From: Planctomycetota bacterium
Lineage (GTDB): Bacteria > Planctomycetota > GCA-002687715 > DRQF01
Assembly (NCBI GenBank): GCA_024275615.1
Contig: JAJRYU010000388.1
Span: forward strand, 1-37,906
DNA: 37,906 nt
Direction of reading: 5' to 3'
Part shown: in pieces, positions 2 to 6,288 of the stretch
Numbering within the stretch: position 1 is the stretch's first letter
Layout of the letters: every line of letters starts with the position of its first letter
Translations under genes and position numbers: made by a program
Notes under the pieces: model-generated
Seen by the model: only the letters and a program-made list of their open reading frames with translations
The model's database searches: none
What the model was told of the DNA's origin: nothing

Positions 2-559
2 ATACCAGCACGAGCAACGATTCGCGGGCAAGACATCGTGAATTCCATCAACAAAAAGGAAAGAGACGGCCCCATAGCCACGTCATTTCAACTGGCGCTG
101 CGCACCAACCAAAGAGAGCTAGACCCCAACGAGTGGTTCACTGCCGAATGGCAGGGGACGATTCCGCTCATGCTGGCACCAGCCCTTCATTTCGTGGGTA
201 TTAAGAGAGAATCACTCAGTGCCCTTCAAGCCGACCTTCACTTGCAGCTCGAGTTGGACAACCCCAACACCTATGCCATTCATCTTCGCTCGCTCGCCAT
301 CGAACTCGAGATCAATGGTCTTTCATTTGGCCGCATTGAATCAAAGGAAATTGACCGCGGGATTCCAGGTGGCGAACGCATTCAGGTCAAAGTCTCTCAT
401 TCCTACCGTCTGTCAAATGAAGGAAGCGAGATCTTTAAGATCTTGGCCCATTCCGAGACTTTTCGAGTTGTCGTTGTCGGTGAAGCGGAACTGGCGTTCG
501 ACTCGCCTCTGTCGCCAGTCAAGGCTAACCTCTCCACCGATGGAACCGCACGGCCTTAA
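2..559 (+). CDS. LEA14/WHy-domain-like protein, 5' partial
   Basis: The frame stays open upstream of the listed start (38) to the window edge. The protein has the LEA_2-like pattern 'LQLELDNPNTYAIHLRSLAIELEINGLSFGRIESKEIDRGIPGGERIQVKV', with a preceding segment that may be the end of another such domain. Confidence 0.6.
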   Translation: MPARATIRGQDIVNSINKKERDGPIATSFQLALRTNQRELDPNEWFTAEWQGTIPLMLAPALHFVGIKRESLSALQADLHLQLELDNPNTYAIHLRSLAIELEINGLSFGRIESKEIDRGIPGGERIQVKVSHSYRLSNEGSEIFKILAHSETFRVVVVGEAELAFDSPLSPVKANLSTDGTARP

Positions 560-789: not shown

Positions 790-832
790 CTCCTTGCGAA
801 GTGAACGAGTGTTGGACGTCAGTCCGGCATCT
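790..832 (+). repeat. Dispersed REP-like hairpin element, copy A
   Basis: ctccttgcgaagtgaacgagtgttggacgtcagtccggcatct. Alignable over about 40 bp (roughly 6 mismatches and small indels by eye) with the reverse complement of 4263-4304; contains the hairpin GTTGGAC-GTCA-GTCCGGC. Confidence 0.65.
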
Positions 833-869
833 CTTCTTCTTGTTCTTCTTCAGCTAGCCTGGACCGGCC

Positions 870-1928
870 TCATTTCTTGTCGGACATCGGACCGATGTAT
901 TTGGTCGCGACAACCAAGTTGTCGAAGTAGACGATGTTCTTGTCAGCCTTGCCTCTCTTTGCCGCTCGACCGGACACGTACCATTGCAGCATGGCGCGAT
1001 TGATCTGCAGGCGTTTGTCTGTTCGCCAATTGAATCCTTCGAACGGTTGCGGATTCTTGTACCACGTGCCCTTGGTCACAAGTCGGTCTCTGATCCAGGC
1101 ACTCATGGGGCGACCGGGACCGTAATGCCCCACTTTCTTGCCGTCGATCCAAAAAGCTTGCTCGCCGTCGTGTTTGCCGATCTTGTTGAGTTGCACCATG
1201 AATTCGAGACAAATCCACTTTTCGCGACCAACGAATGGACGTTGGTCATCCGGCATGAAACTGTTGCCATAGTAAGCATTGGGGCGGCCATCGGCTTTGC
1301 CTCCGGGTGTCTGCCAACTTCGCATCTCGTGCCAATAGGTGTAGAACATCCACCCTTTCCGGCCCTTGGGCGCTCGATCCAAGTTAGGTGGCTCAAGAGT
1401 CGTGCCGAATTTGCCGTTCTCGCCACCCGGTGGCCTGATGCCCGCACCTCCCCCGAAGCGGTACTTGTAGGTCGGCATGTGCCCGCTCATGTTAATGAAG
1501 TGGTGCGGCGTCACTGTGTTCTTGTCAAAGCGGCAATAGACTCGAAGGTAGCAGCGGTCGACGCCTTTCCTCCATGTCAATTGGAGATCGCCACCGGCAT
1601 CGACACCCCTTGTTGCTCTGATTTTCGCACAAGCCCTCCCAGAGCGAGCCAACTTCTTGCTCTTGAGAATCTCAACACCCTTCCGCCTTTTCTTAAGATC
1701 GCCTTCAATGCCACTCTCAAAACCAGTGGCGTAGATAACTGCTGGATTCTTCTCGATGCCACGGTCTTGGGAATACCGAGCAGCTAACCCCGGTCCAGAT
1801 TCGTCAGCTCTCTTTTGCCCCGTGCGACGGAGACCTTGGCCTTGGAGTGCAGCCGGAGCAAGAAAAAGGAAAAGGAGAATTCCGGCAAGAACGCAGTTCC
1901 TGGGCTCAGATGCGACAGTCAATTTCAT
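870..1928 (-). CDS. Secreted polysaccharide-lyase-like / ConA-like (jelly-roll) fold protein
   Basis: 352 aa with an N-terminal hydrophobic signal (CVLAGILLFLFLAPAALQGQ), a Trp/Tyr/Gly-rich beta-sandwich-like body and a terminal 'YFDNLVVATKYIG' motif. Fold call is by eye. Confidence 0.65.
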   Translation of the reverse strand: MKLTVASEPRNCVLAGILLFLFLAPAALQGQGLRRTGQKRADESGPGLAARYSQDRGIEKNPAVIYATGFESGIEGDLKKRRKGVEILKSKKLARSGRACAKIRATRGVDAGGDLQLTWRKGVDRCYLRVYCRFDKNTVTPHHFINMSGHMPTYKYRFGGGAGIRPPGGENGKFGTTLEPPNLDRAPKGRKGWMFYTYWHEMRSWQTPGGKADGRPNAYYGNSFMPDDQRPFVGREKWICLEFMVQLNKIGKHDGEQAFWIDGKKVGHYGPGRPMSAWIRDRLVTKGTWYKNPQPFEGFNWRTDKRLQINRAMLQWYVSGRAAKRGKADKNIVYFDNLVVATKYIGPMSDKK

Positions 1929-2108
1929 GTGATCTCAGTTCTCTTGAGAGAAAGGTGCGCATGGGCGACATTGTCCATGATCTTATGAATGGGGCGGTTC
2001 AGGCAAGACCAGATAAAGCTCAAAGCCCAGTTTCTGTCAAGTCTATACTGCATTTCGCCACAAACTCGTGAACTCGGCTGGCTGACCAACGTATCATGGA
2101 GGAGCGAG

Positions 2109-2126
2109 ACCGCGGTTCACCGCGGT
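2109..2126 (+). promoter_or_regulatory. Tandem 8-bp palindrome/hairpin directly upstream of Shine-Dalgarno
   Basis: ACCGCGGT-tc-ACCGCGGT, 3 nt before AAAGGAG and 16 nt before ATG 2143. Confidence 0.5.
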
Positions 2127-2142
2127 GGCAAAAGGAGAAGCA

Positions 2143-4134
2143 ATGGATCCCTCGACAAGACGAGTTTTTGCCCTGGGCACTTTCTTGCTTATTGCAGTGG
2201 TCGCCGCTTTTCTTTGGCAATCGAAGGCCTCCTACTCGGATGTCGAACTTGGGCAAGGCGCTGACCCATTAGGATTCGATCACGAAGGCCCAAGGCGCGA
2301 CGTCAGGAATCCACTTTCCACCTTGGAGATCCCGGAAGGAAACACCCCAGGCCCAAATATCCAGAAACAGCCTGATTTGGAGTCCGCCGCGAGACTCTAC
2401 ACTGGGCCAATCCACTTTGAAGGCGAGGTCAGCGACAATGCTGACTCTGAAATCCCTATCGCCAATGCGAAGGTCAGTCTTTTTGCGGACTTTGACGATG
2501 GCTCTTTGGTTTTCCTCGTTTCCACAACAACAAACCAAGAAGGCGAGTTCTCAGTAACGACCTTGGCGCTAGCTGGATATCGGGAATGCGCCATCAACAA
2601 GACAATGCTACGCTGCATGGCAACGGCTGACGGCTTCATTCCGGATTGGGAATGGGGCTCCATCACGACAAGAACAACGAATTCAGTGATGATCGGTCTT
2701 CAACGTGGCCAAGGAGTACGTGGGCGTCTTGTCGATCATCGAGGGCAGATCGTCTCGAATGGCACGGTCACGGCTCTTCAGTGGAGCGAAAGTCAAGGCT
2801 ACTATGATGACTTGAATTCAGCCAAAGTACTGCCCGATGGTTCTTTTGGTCTTTCGATCGACGTAGAAGGCCCAGTGATTCTTGAGTTCAACACACCCCA
2901 AGGCGCCGCCCGTTTCCCAGACGTATCCCCAAGAAATGACACGGTTGTTGACCTGGGGGAGATCGTTGTCTCCGAGCTGGGTGTCATTGAGGGTGTGATG
3001 GTGGATAAGGTGGGATCACCTGTTCCTTTCCTTCCTTTCTACATTTCCTTGGTCGACTACGATGACAAGACCCCCTACGAGGAGCCCGGCTTGGAGGAAG
3101 GACGCGTCCATACTGACAAGCAAGGCAAATTCAGAGTCATCGGACTGAAAGTGGGACGACGGTACTATTTTTCCTACGCAGGTTCATTGGGGCAATCAGA
3201 TAACCACATGGCAACGACAAGAGATCTGCGACTGGTCAATACGGAGAGTCGCCTCCTTGTCCATGTCGAAGATGAAAATGGACAGCCCATCCGGGGGGTC
3301 GATCTACAACTTTTGGTCGAACGCAAAGACCCAAGAAACAAGATCTTCTACCAGACCAAGGACCGTATGTTCACGATGTCCACCAAGGCCTACGCTGTTT
3401 TCGATCTCGCGCTCGACGAGAACTACGCACTGAGGGCGTCCTTGAACAACCAAGCAACTTACTACGCTGTTGACAGACCTGTTCCCAAGCCCGTCGTCGG
3501 TACGCAAATGATGAAAATCGTCATGCCCACGGCGCCGGCGGAGAGATGGTTGGAACTGCGGGTTCTGCAGGCGAAGAACGGCAGAACAACGGATTTCTCG
3601 GCCCAGCTCCTATCGGCAAGGACCGAAGAGCCAGCCCAAATATTCACGTTCGGAAAAGGAGGCCGTGAGAGGATCCGAGTCGCTCCTGGCAAATGGATTC
3701 TTGAGGTCTTCCCTAGACGAAGAGATGGCTGGAGAACACGCGCGCCCAGTTTTGCCGTCGGTCACCGCGAGACGATCGACGTCCCGACGACAGGAACGAT
3801 TCGCAAAGACATCCACCTTCGAATCGGTGGACGTTTGGCGATAAGAGCGGCACGTCTGAACGAAAATGTCACGAACGGTCCGATCACCATGGTCGCCGTC
3901 GCTCGGTCAAATGGCGCCAACCACTTATTTCGATTTGCAGCCTGTCGCTCACGGGGGAGAGAAGATTTCGCAAGCCTGGGAAACAACTGGAAGTGGTACC
4001 GGCAGGCCTTTCTCCCAGGGGTATACGATATTGAGTTCAGCTCCCCTTGGCACCAGACGATCCGCAGAACGGTTACAGTTGAATCAAACAAGATGACACT
4101 CGTGACGATCATCCTGGAGAACAAGGAAAAGTAG
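2143..4134 (+). CDS. Membrane-anchored carboxypeptidase-regulatory-like domain protein
   Basis: ATG at 2143 is preceded by AAAGGAG; the listed start at 2125 is a GTG upstream. N-terminal TM segment 'VFALGTFLLIAVVAAFLW' is followed by repeated beta-sandwich segments (e.g. 'IPIANAKVSLFADFDDGSLVFLVSTTTNQEGEFSVTTLALAGY'). Confidence 0.7.
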   Translation: MDPSTRRVFALGTFLLIAVVAAFLWQSKASYSDVELGQGADPLGFDHEGPRRDVRNPLSTLEIPEGNTPGPNIQKQPDLESAARLYTGPIHFEGEVSDNADSEIPIANAKVSLFADFDDGSLVFLVSTTTNQEGEFSVTTLALAGYRECAINKTMLRCMATADGFIPDWEWGSITTRTTNSVMIGLQRGQGVRGRLVDHRGQIVSNGTVTALQWSESQGYYDDLNSAKVLPDGSFGLSIDVEGPVILEFNTPQGAARFPDVSPRNDTVVDLGEIVVSELGVIEGVMVDKVGSPVPFLPFYISLVDYDDKTPYEEPGLEEGRVHTDKQGKFRVIGLKVGRRYYFSYAGSLGQSDNHMATTRDLRLVNTESRLLVHVEDENGQPIRGVDLQLLVERKDPRNKIFYQTKDRMFTMSTKAYAVFDLALDENYALRASLNNQATYYAVDRPVPKPVVGTQMMKIVMPTAPAERWLELRVLQAKNGRTTDFSAQLLSARTEEPAQIFTFGKGGRERIRVAPGKWILEVFPRRRDGWRTRAPSFAVGHRETIDVPTTGTIRKDIHLRIGGRLAIRAARLNENVTNGPITMVAVARSNGANHLFRFAACRSRGREDFASLGNNWKWYRQAFLPGVYDIEFSSPWHQTIRRTVTVESNKMTLVTIILENKEK

Positions 4135-4262
4135 AGGCGTGAGAGTTCTTGAGAAATTGTGCGCAGCAACGGAAGTGAAGGGGACCACCGAACGTCGAGA
4201 GGCTTGGCGCGGCCCTTGACATTTCCACCGCATGGCAACGCAAAGAAGAAAGAAAAGAAAAA

Positions 4263-4357
4263 ATGCCGAACTGACGTTCAGCGCTCCCGATCGCTTCGCA
4301 AGAGTTTTCTGTGTGGCCGGGACCACCGAACGGGAGCGCCGAACGTCAGTTCGGCAT
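4263..4357. repeat. Inverted pair of REP-like hairpin elements (27-bp arms, 41-nt spacer)
   Basis: Left arm 4263-4289 atgccgaactgacgttcagcgctcccg and right arm 4331-4357 cgggagcgccgaacgtcagttcggcat are reverse complements with one mismatch. Lies between convergent genes and could also act as a bidirectional terminator. Confidence 0.85.
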
Positions 4358-4422
4358 CTTGGCTTTTCGTACATAGACACATCGTCGCCAACAGTGTTGC
4401 TTTTCTGTGTGAACCCAAGTTC

Positions 4423-6288
4423 TCACGCATCCATGCCGACTTTGTCCTGAGATTGATAGAGGCGGGCGTAGACACCTTGGACTTGAATCAGCTCGGCGTG
4501 ATTTCCTTCTTCCACGAGCCTACCTTCTTCAATAACCAAAATTTTGTCGGCATCGACGATGGTCGAAAGTCGGTGGGCGATGACCAAGGCCGTCCGGCCT
4601 TTGAGAAGGTTCTTCAGAGCTTCCTGAACTGTCCTCTCCGACTCTGTGTCCAGGCTACTGGTCGCCTCGTCGAGTATGAGGAAGGAAGCATCTTTTAGGA
4701 TGGCCCGAGCGATGGTCACGCGCTGCAATTGCCCCCCAGACAAACTTGCCCCGCGCTCACCCACAAGAGTGTCATAGCCTTCGGGAAGACCAATGATAAG
4801 TTCATGGATGTGCGCCGCTTTCGCTGCAGCCTCGATTTCAGAATCGCTGGCATCAATCCGACCGTAGGCAATATTCTCGCGAATCGTCGTGTTGAAGAGA
4901 AACGGTCTCTGACTGACGACGGCCATCTGACTGAGCAAGCTTTCGCGGGTGATTTCGGTGGCAGGATGATTGTCAAAAGTGATTCTCCCGGCACAAGGTT
5001 CGTGAAAGCGAAACAGAAGGTCGGCAATGGTGGACTTTCCAGCGCCAGATGGACCAACCAATGCGACGGTCGTGCCGCAGGCGATCTCGAAACTCAGATC
5101 GCGCAAGACGGGGATCGATGAACCATCTTCGTCCAAGTAGGAGAAGCTCACTCGGTCAAAGGAGATAGAATCGACAATGGGCCCAATGCTGATGGCGCCC
5201 GGTACGTCGGGAACCTCCACTTCTCGATCAATGATCTCAAAGACACGCGCCGTGGCAGCCATGGACTCTTGCCAATCATTGTAGGCCACAGAAATGCGTC
5301 TGAGCGGACGGTAAGCTGTGGCCATGGCAATCAGAAAAGCCATGAAAGTCGAAGCATTCAATCCCCACATTTCATTGATCGTGAGCCAACCGCCTGCACC
5401 CATGATCAAAGCAAGAGTAATTCCATAGACGACGTCCATGATACCCCGCCCCGCCGCCTTGGCTCGGATGAGTGACGACTGACGTTTCAACCAGCGCCGA
5501 TTGACTTCACGATAACGCGCGGACTCAAGTTTCTCAGCGCGAAAAGCCTTGATGACACGCAGGCCCGATAGGGCCTGATTGATGGCTTCCATGCTCTCCC
5601 CCAAAGACACAAGGCTCTGACGACTACGCTTGCGCACTTTCTTGCCAATAATGGCAAGAGGAAGAACAATAAACGGCCCGACGATGAGAGTCACCAGCGT
5701 CAGGCGCCAGTTAAGATTGAGAGCGACCAAGAGCGCCAAGGCAAAAATCAACGGTTGTAAGACAAGGATGAGCAGAAAAATGCGCACGGCGTTATAGGTA
5801 ATCTGAACGTCAGTCGAAAAACGTGACACCAAATCTCCGACTTTGCGCTTGGTGTAGAATGCTACCGGAAGATCAAGAATCTTGTCCATCAATGAACAAC
5901 GCAGATCAACGACAATGAGCGCTGACAGGTAACGTCCAAAGAAGGTGTTGGCGTAGGTGGCGGCTGCCGAGACGATACCCAGAAGAACAAGGCCTACAGT
6001 GATGAAGACAAGAGCTGCAGGGCGAACATCATCAAGGGCGTAGCCGAAGAACGCTGCGAACGAGGAGCCGACTTCCGCGCACCATTTTTGAACCGCAGTC
6101 GCCTCCGCGCCTTGATTTGGAAAAAGAACGTCAATCGCTGCCTTTGCCAAACCGATGGGAGCTATTTCGGCGATAGCCGCCACAACCATCGCCACTAAGG
6201 TGGCCAACAACGTCCCCCGATGGCCTTTGATGCGCCTGAGGAGTCGTAAGGTTTGGGCGAGGCTATTGTCCAGTTTTTCGGCACCCAT
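4423..6288 (-). CDS. ABC transporter, fused permease/ATPase, MsbA-like exporter family
   Basis: 621 aa with Walker A 'GPSGAGKST', signature 'LSGGQLQRVTIARAIL', Walker B 'FLILDEATSSLD', H-loop 'VIAHRLSTI' and an N-terminal multi-TM region. Confidence 0.93.
   Translation of the reverse strand: MGAEKLDNSLAQTLRLLRRIKGHRGTLLATLVAMVVAAIAEIAPIGLAKAAIDVLFPNQGAEATAVQKWCAEVGSSFAAFFGYALDDVRPAALVFITVGLVLLGIVSAAATYANTFFGRYLSALIVVDLRCSLMDKILDLPVAFYTKRKVGDLVSRFSTDVQITYNAVRIFLLILVLQPLIFALALLVALNLNWRLTLVTLIVGPFIVLPLAIIGKKVRKRSRQSLVSLGESMEAINQALSGLRVIKAFRAEKLESARYREVNRRWLKRQSSLIRAKAAGRGIMDVVYGITLALIMGAGGWLTINEMWGLNASTFMAFLIAMATAYRPLRRISVAYNDWQESMAATARVFEIIDREVEVPDVPGAISIGPIVDSISFDRVSFSYLDEDGSSIPVLRDLSFEIACGTTVALVGPSGAGKSTIADLLFRFHEPCAGRITFDNHPATEITRESLLSQMAVVSQRPFLFNTTIRENIAYGRIDASDSEIEAAAKAAHIHELIIGLPEGYDTLVGERGASLSGGQLQRVTIARAILKDASFLILDEATSSLDTESERTVQEALKNLLKGRTALVIAHRLSTIVDADKILVIEEGRLVEEGNHAELIQVQGVYARLYQSQDKVGMDA

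Follow-up and report, generated by a model that had tools for sequence, protein, structure and literature searches.

The hairpins at two gene ends in this stretch of DNA probably belong to a dispersed REP/REPIN family of the TIR type, restricted to its own species among the genomes searched. The family is new as a family and ordinary as a kind, i.e., of a kind with the known bacterial REP repeats. The window (the whole stretch of DNA analysed, 37,906 nucleotides from a planctomycete contig) holds members of it at two sites. An earlier note had described three hairpins with a GTCA loop, and all three are present. Read directly from the sequence, the core of copy A, GTTGGAC-GTCA-GTCCGGC, occupies 811-828 on the plus strand; the right-arm core of the second site, GCCGAAC-GTCA-GTTCGGC, occupies 4338-4355 on the plus strand; and the left-arm core, GCTGAAC-GTCA-GTTCGGC, runs from 4282 to 4265 on the minus strand, within the 4263-4289 originally given for it. 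The two sites and their flanking genes comprise the following features.

38-559, plus strand: flanking gene of the first site, with a weak LEA_2 match just under cut-off
791-851, minus strand: copy A, a solo left half-unit, 85% identical to the unit; covariance-model match at 803-837, 50.3 bits
811-828, plus strand: hairpin core of copy A, read directly; terminator-like site at 809-830, tail CTCTTCTTCT
829-852, plus strand: T-rich tail 3' of the copy A hairpin, from the sequence and the tail census
870-1928, minus strand: flanking gene of the first site, with no Pfam or NCBIfam match
2125-4134, plus strand: flanking gene of the second site, with a CarboxypepD_reg domain
4189-4254, plus strand: companion 5' module of about 70 nt (88% identity, E 1.6e-17)
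4252-4368, no strand assigned: complete inverted pair (REPIN-like unit), a long hairpin when folded as one strand
4252-4293, minus strand: left arm of the complete unit, in the inverted repeat; model match 60.2 bits, terminator-like; box CGGGAGC, hairpin 4282-4265, minus-strand tail ATTTTTTCTTTTC
4327-4368, plus strand: right arm of the complete unit, in the inverted repeat; model match 60.4 bits; box CGGGAGC, hairpin 4338-4355, tail ATCTTGGCTTTTC
4423-6288, minus strand: flanking gene of the second site, an MsbA-like ABC exporter below the family cut-off

At the second site, 4252-4293 and 4327-4368 form a 42-nt inverted repeat that is 88% complementary, its halves 33 nt apart. The whole 117 nt of 4252-4368 fold as DNA at -41.2 kcal/mol (z -8.9 versus shuffles), and RNA of the minus strand over 4248-4368 reaches about -74 kcal/mol and has a T-rich end. 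The companion module (window 4189-4264) finishes in a purine-rich run, the complement of which is the left arm's T-rich tail. At the first site, copy A begins about 20 nt past the stop codon of the gene at 870-1928 on the minus strand, and the RNA fold of 803-860 has a z of -2.5. Homology beyond the hairpin, which the earlier note had also claimed, was borne out: copy A (791-851, minus strand) matches the left half of the repeat unit at 85% over about 61 nt (E 4.8e-10).

The typical unit of the family is an inverted pair of arms spanning about 110 bp, and nine complete pairs were aligned. Each arm has a (C)GGGAGC(GC) box, then a 7-bp hairpin whose 4-nt loop is usually GTCA, and then GCAT and a tail; in the 36 arms read, the flanking bases are AGC(GC) and ATCTTGG or ATTTCTT. 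Like REPs, the arms are short palindromic hairpins (37 nt in the covariance model), dispersed in multiple copies, and the nine pairs, like the window copy at 4252-4368, have the organization of REPINs, i.e., an inverted REP doublet with a spacer. Units stand in tandem on contig C30, and many arms are solo, including solo left arms at several sites. The companion module was found at eight places in the genome, always adjoining arms.

The two arm types differ in their tails. T-rich tails follow 17 of 19 left arms and 1 of 17 right arms, compared with 5% of random positions; naming the types by their tails makes this split in part a matter of definition, whereas the T-richness of the left group is no product of the naming. 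The tail of the right type is ATCTTGGCTT. A G+C-rich hairpin followed by a T-rich tract, the hallmark of intrinsic terminators, is found in both window hairpins of the left type, and a terminator scan flagged both. The earlier suggestion of a reused terminator cassette is therefore borne out in part, about half of the arms having terminator-like T-rich tails. The REP-family and terminator readings are compatible.

The source genome is a planctomycete assembly of 5,133,611 bases in 820 contigs, 83% complete and 5.7% contaminated. Its NusA protein places it in Planctomycetota, with HyVt-576 as the nearest named relative at 62% identity. Within this genome the degenerate 17-mer RACGTCAGTYCGGCATC has 13 exact matches, compared with 0 for a reversed control, and a 203-nt unit used as a BLAST query has 27. 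A one-arm covariance model trained on 29 distinct arms matched 38 times at E <= 0.01, or 39 times at E <= 0.1, at about 24 sites, and 0 times among 58 other genomes, which included one congener (G001) and one further family member; the arms used in building match by construction, and the match-free genomes are independent of that. The weakest matches (on C213, C732 and C294) are uncertain. The genome probably holds more copies than this, because the assembly is incomplete and contig C185 starts inside a copy. A search of GTDB genome contigs with an exact 21-mer returned nothing beyond the genome itself. One BLAST match of 22 nt in G057 (E 6e-4) was put down to chance, and a loose pattern, GGGANCGC-N-GCATCTT, run on 59 genomes, gave mostly chance-like matches outside the source genome (G000) and was used for that genome only. 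The earlier note had set beforehand that a genome-wide search returning only the two window loci would count against a dispersed family; with about 24 sites recovered and a RAYT in the same genome, the REP-like reading is supported.

The paired state of the stem exceeds chance expectation. Among the 29 distinct arms, 98.0% of paired cells are complementary, compared with 94.6% in shuffles (0 of 500 shuffles as high), and 13 cells are altered on both sides. These changes centre on one pair, columns 15/24, which is G-C in 14 arms, A-U in 13 and unpaired in 2; in the second and third pairs one side alone varies (U.G/C-G), and three pairs are invariant. The states mostly track arm type. One exception is the left arm at 4265-4282, which combines the A-T state with a T-rich tail, and both arms of the complete window unit (4252-4368) are in the same state of the compensatory pair. 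Independent covariation events are few, because one base pair only is involved and its states largely follow arm type. That is, the compensatory changes proposed earlier are genuine and both-sided at columns 15/24, but confined to that one pair.

Both window sites lie between convergent genes, as previously noted: 38-559(+)/870-1928(-) and 2125-4134(+)/4423-6288(-). For gene context, genes were called by codon usage with the window as the training set, which allowed 20 of the 24 sites to be classified: 16 are convergent, 3 unidirectional and 1 divergent. Of the four sites left unclassified, two overlap a called gene. As expected of REPs, the family is extragenic and sits mostly between convergent or unidirectional genes. 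The convergent share, 16 of 20 sites, compares with 5 of 29 window junctions (Fisher P 1.5e-5, the baseline being one window only), and without the window sites it is 14 of 18 versus 3 of 27 (P 8e-6). Pfam confirms genes on both sides at four sites, the pairs being kinase/GGDEF, CarboxypepD_reg/transketolase-type, ribosomal protein S20/cyclase-like and MGDG synthase/class II tRNA synthetase.

A REP-associated tyrosine transposase (Y1_Tnp), which it had been suggested to look for, is present. The one Y1_Tnp match in the genome is a 270-aa protein on contig C551 (L057:6836-7648, minus strand), assigned to NCBIfam NF047646, REP-associated tyrosine transposase, at 84.8 bits versus a cut-off of 80. 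It is flanked, in inverted orientation, by gcgggcg-TCCC-cgcccgc ATCTTGG and CTGGGACC-gcgggcg-TCCC-cgccccc ATCTTC. Compared with the window family, these hairpins have a similar box and tail and a different stem. No RAYT was found beside a copy of the window-family stem type. The neighbours of the C551 gene, named by eye from their translations, are a TetR-like regulator and an old-yellow-enzyme-like gene.

Several relatives of the C551 RAYT in the phylum are bordered by inverted box-plus-hairpin pairs. Across 30 RAYT loci, box-plus-hairpin matches number 16 within 400 bp (36 kb) and 4 further out (60 kb), compared with 0.7 in shuffles; most of the 30 loci are without one. With the genome's own RAYT left out the enrichment has a P of 2.8e-4, a value that is descriptive because the box expression was written after several of those loci had been seen. 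Of 294 planctomycete genomes, 7 match GGGANCGCNGACGTNNCGTCNGC, a pattern for hairpins with the box of the family and other stems, in up to 17 copies and with 0 control matches. The hairpins beside this one RAYT group suggest a common plan: a GGGANCGC box, a variable stem and a GCAT tail.

Further hairpins were observed along the way. Some in the same genome share the GGGAGCGC box of the family, with other stems and mostly T-rich tails (contigs C338, C479, C763, C149, C593 and C714; loci L245, L246, L247, L248, L249 and L250), and are apparently sister families. The relative G168 (L252 and other loci) carries 17 copies of the box-plus-hairpin pattern and is a better genome for studying the class. 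In G020 (L197:1920-2200), four ggcggaca-TTCG-tgtccgcc hairpins, spaced at about 90 nt, adjoin a distant RAYT relative.

The same observations can be read in other ways. The copies might be intrinsic terminators that have become alike through duplication and gene conversion, never having been mobile as an element. The tails of the left arms, the place of both window hairpins near the top of the terminator scan, the convergent bias and the solo left arms all agree with such an origin. However, right arms are without T-rich tails, and the box, tail and companion module are conserved outside the hairpin, where termination does not need them; moreover, the congener G001 has no copies, and RAYT genes are surrounded by a similar plan. 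We consider this origin unlikely. A MITE, i.e., an element derived from a DDE-type insertion sequence, non-autonomous and with the arms as its terminal inverted repeats, would account for the 42-nt inverted repeat in the window, but not for the internal hairpin in each arm or the many solo arms, and no transposase bounded by these arms appeared in the loci read. It is a very improbable origin, and the MITE-like label used in the earlier note is not needed.

We give still less credence to a structured 3' untranslated RNA element with a regulatory role for the flanking genes, for which there is barely any room: the stable folds and G.U-tolerant pairs are what such an element would show, but nothing in Rfam matched the window at the gathering threshold, no function is common to the flanking genes, and the feature is absent from the 58 relatives. 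Integron attC sites were considered and dropped. Their core consensus is RYYYAAC, which the core GCYGAAC does not fit.

In the REP/REPIN reading that we favour, the copies would once have spread as single-stranded hairpins through the action of a RAYT of the C551 group, either the C551 enzyme or a relative that has been lost or was left unassembled. That copies remain chiefly between convergent genes may be due to insertions doing no harm there. Transcription of one neighbour could be terminated by the T-tailed arm, or by the entire folded pair when read from that side, which might also protect mRNA 3' ends. In the window, the tail at 4264-4252 would serve the minus-strand ABC exporter gene, and the tail at 829-852, terminator-like on the plus strand, would serve the plus-strand gene ending at 559. 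A more far-reaching proposal makes the unit a mobile element that acts as bidirectional punctuation. On this view a RAYT spread an inverted pair of which one arm became specialised as an intrinsic terminator while its partner retained a recognition tail, and new copies would thereby equip convergent gene pairs with terminators. This is a speculative proposal, and we regard it as rather unlikely.

With this family, Planctomycetota gain a set of hairpins restricted to one species, in a phylum with reported but little-described REPs. If the T-tailed arm does terminate transcription, the family would offer a clear case in which to ask if terminators between converging genes come from transposable hairpins.

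Among known systems, REPINs and BIMEs (Bertels and Rainey 2011, PMC3116915) resemble the window family in pairing two inverted hairpin arms across a spacer, in being present many times per genome at extragenic places, and in their mosaic and tandem arrangements. Unlike them, the window family has about 39 arms and no dedicated RAYT that was found, and the GTAG tetranucleotide that classical RAYT-mobilised REPs have at the hairpin foot is absent from the 36 arms read. Di Nocera et al. 2013 (PMC3733652) describe REPs with stems of 6-9 bp, complementary stem variants and homo- or heterodimers, located between convergent and unidirectional genes. The CGTC-tagged REPs of that study likewise form heterodimers with complementary stem changes between arms, lie between convergent genes and have no dedicated transposase known. 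The arms of the window family differ from them in being without the terminal CGTC tag and in having a 7-bp stem, not one of 8-9 bp, without A-T pairs at its first two positions.

The same study reports RAYT-like genes flanked by TIRs, some of them self-complementary and forming moderately abundant families. These repeats, of TIRtrons or TIRYT genes, probably correspond to RAYT subclass 2.1 of PMC6006769, where TIRYTs are equated with that subclass; PMC8266576 deals with how TnpA_REP recognizes REPs. The window family differs from the TIRs of TIRtrons in that its stem is not the one beside its own genome's RAYT and in the T-rich tail on one arm type, and its box, GGGA[GC]CG, resembles without equalling the published TIR motif GGGGWSAS. 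Like those repeats, a kind that flanks tyrosine transposase genes, it is self-complementary, is organized as singles, dimers or clusters, and has a moderate copy number. In structure and location the window family fits the repeats of PMC3733652, apart from the missing GTAG and CGTC tags, and it is the TIR class that it most nearly resembles.
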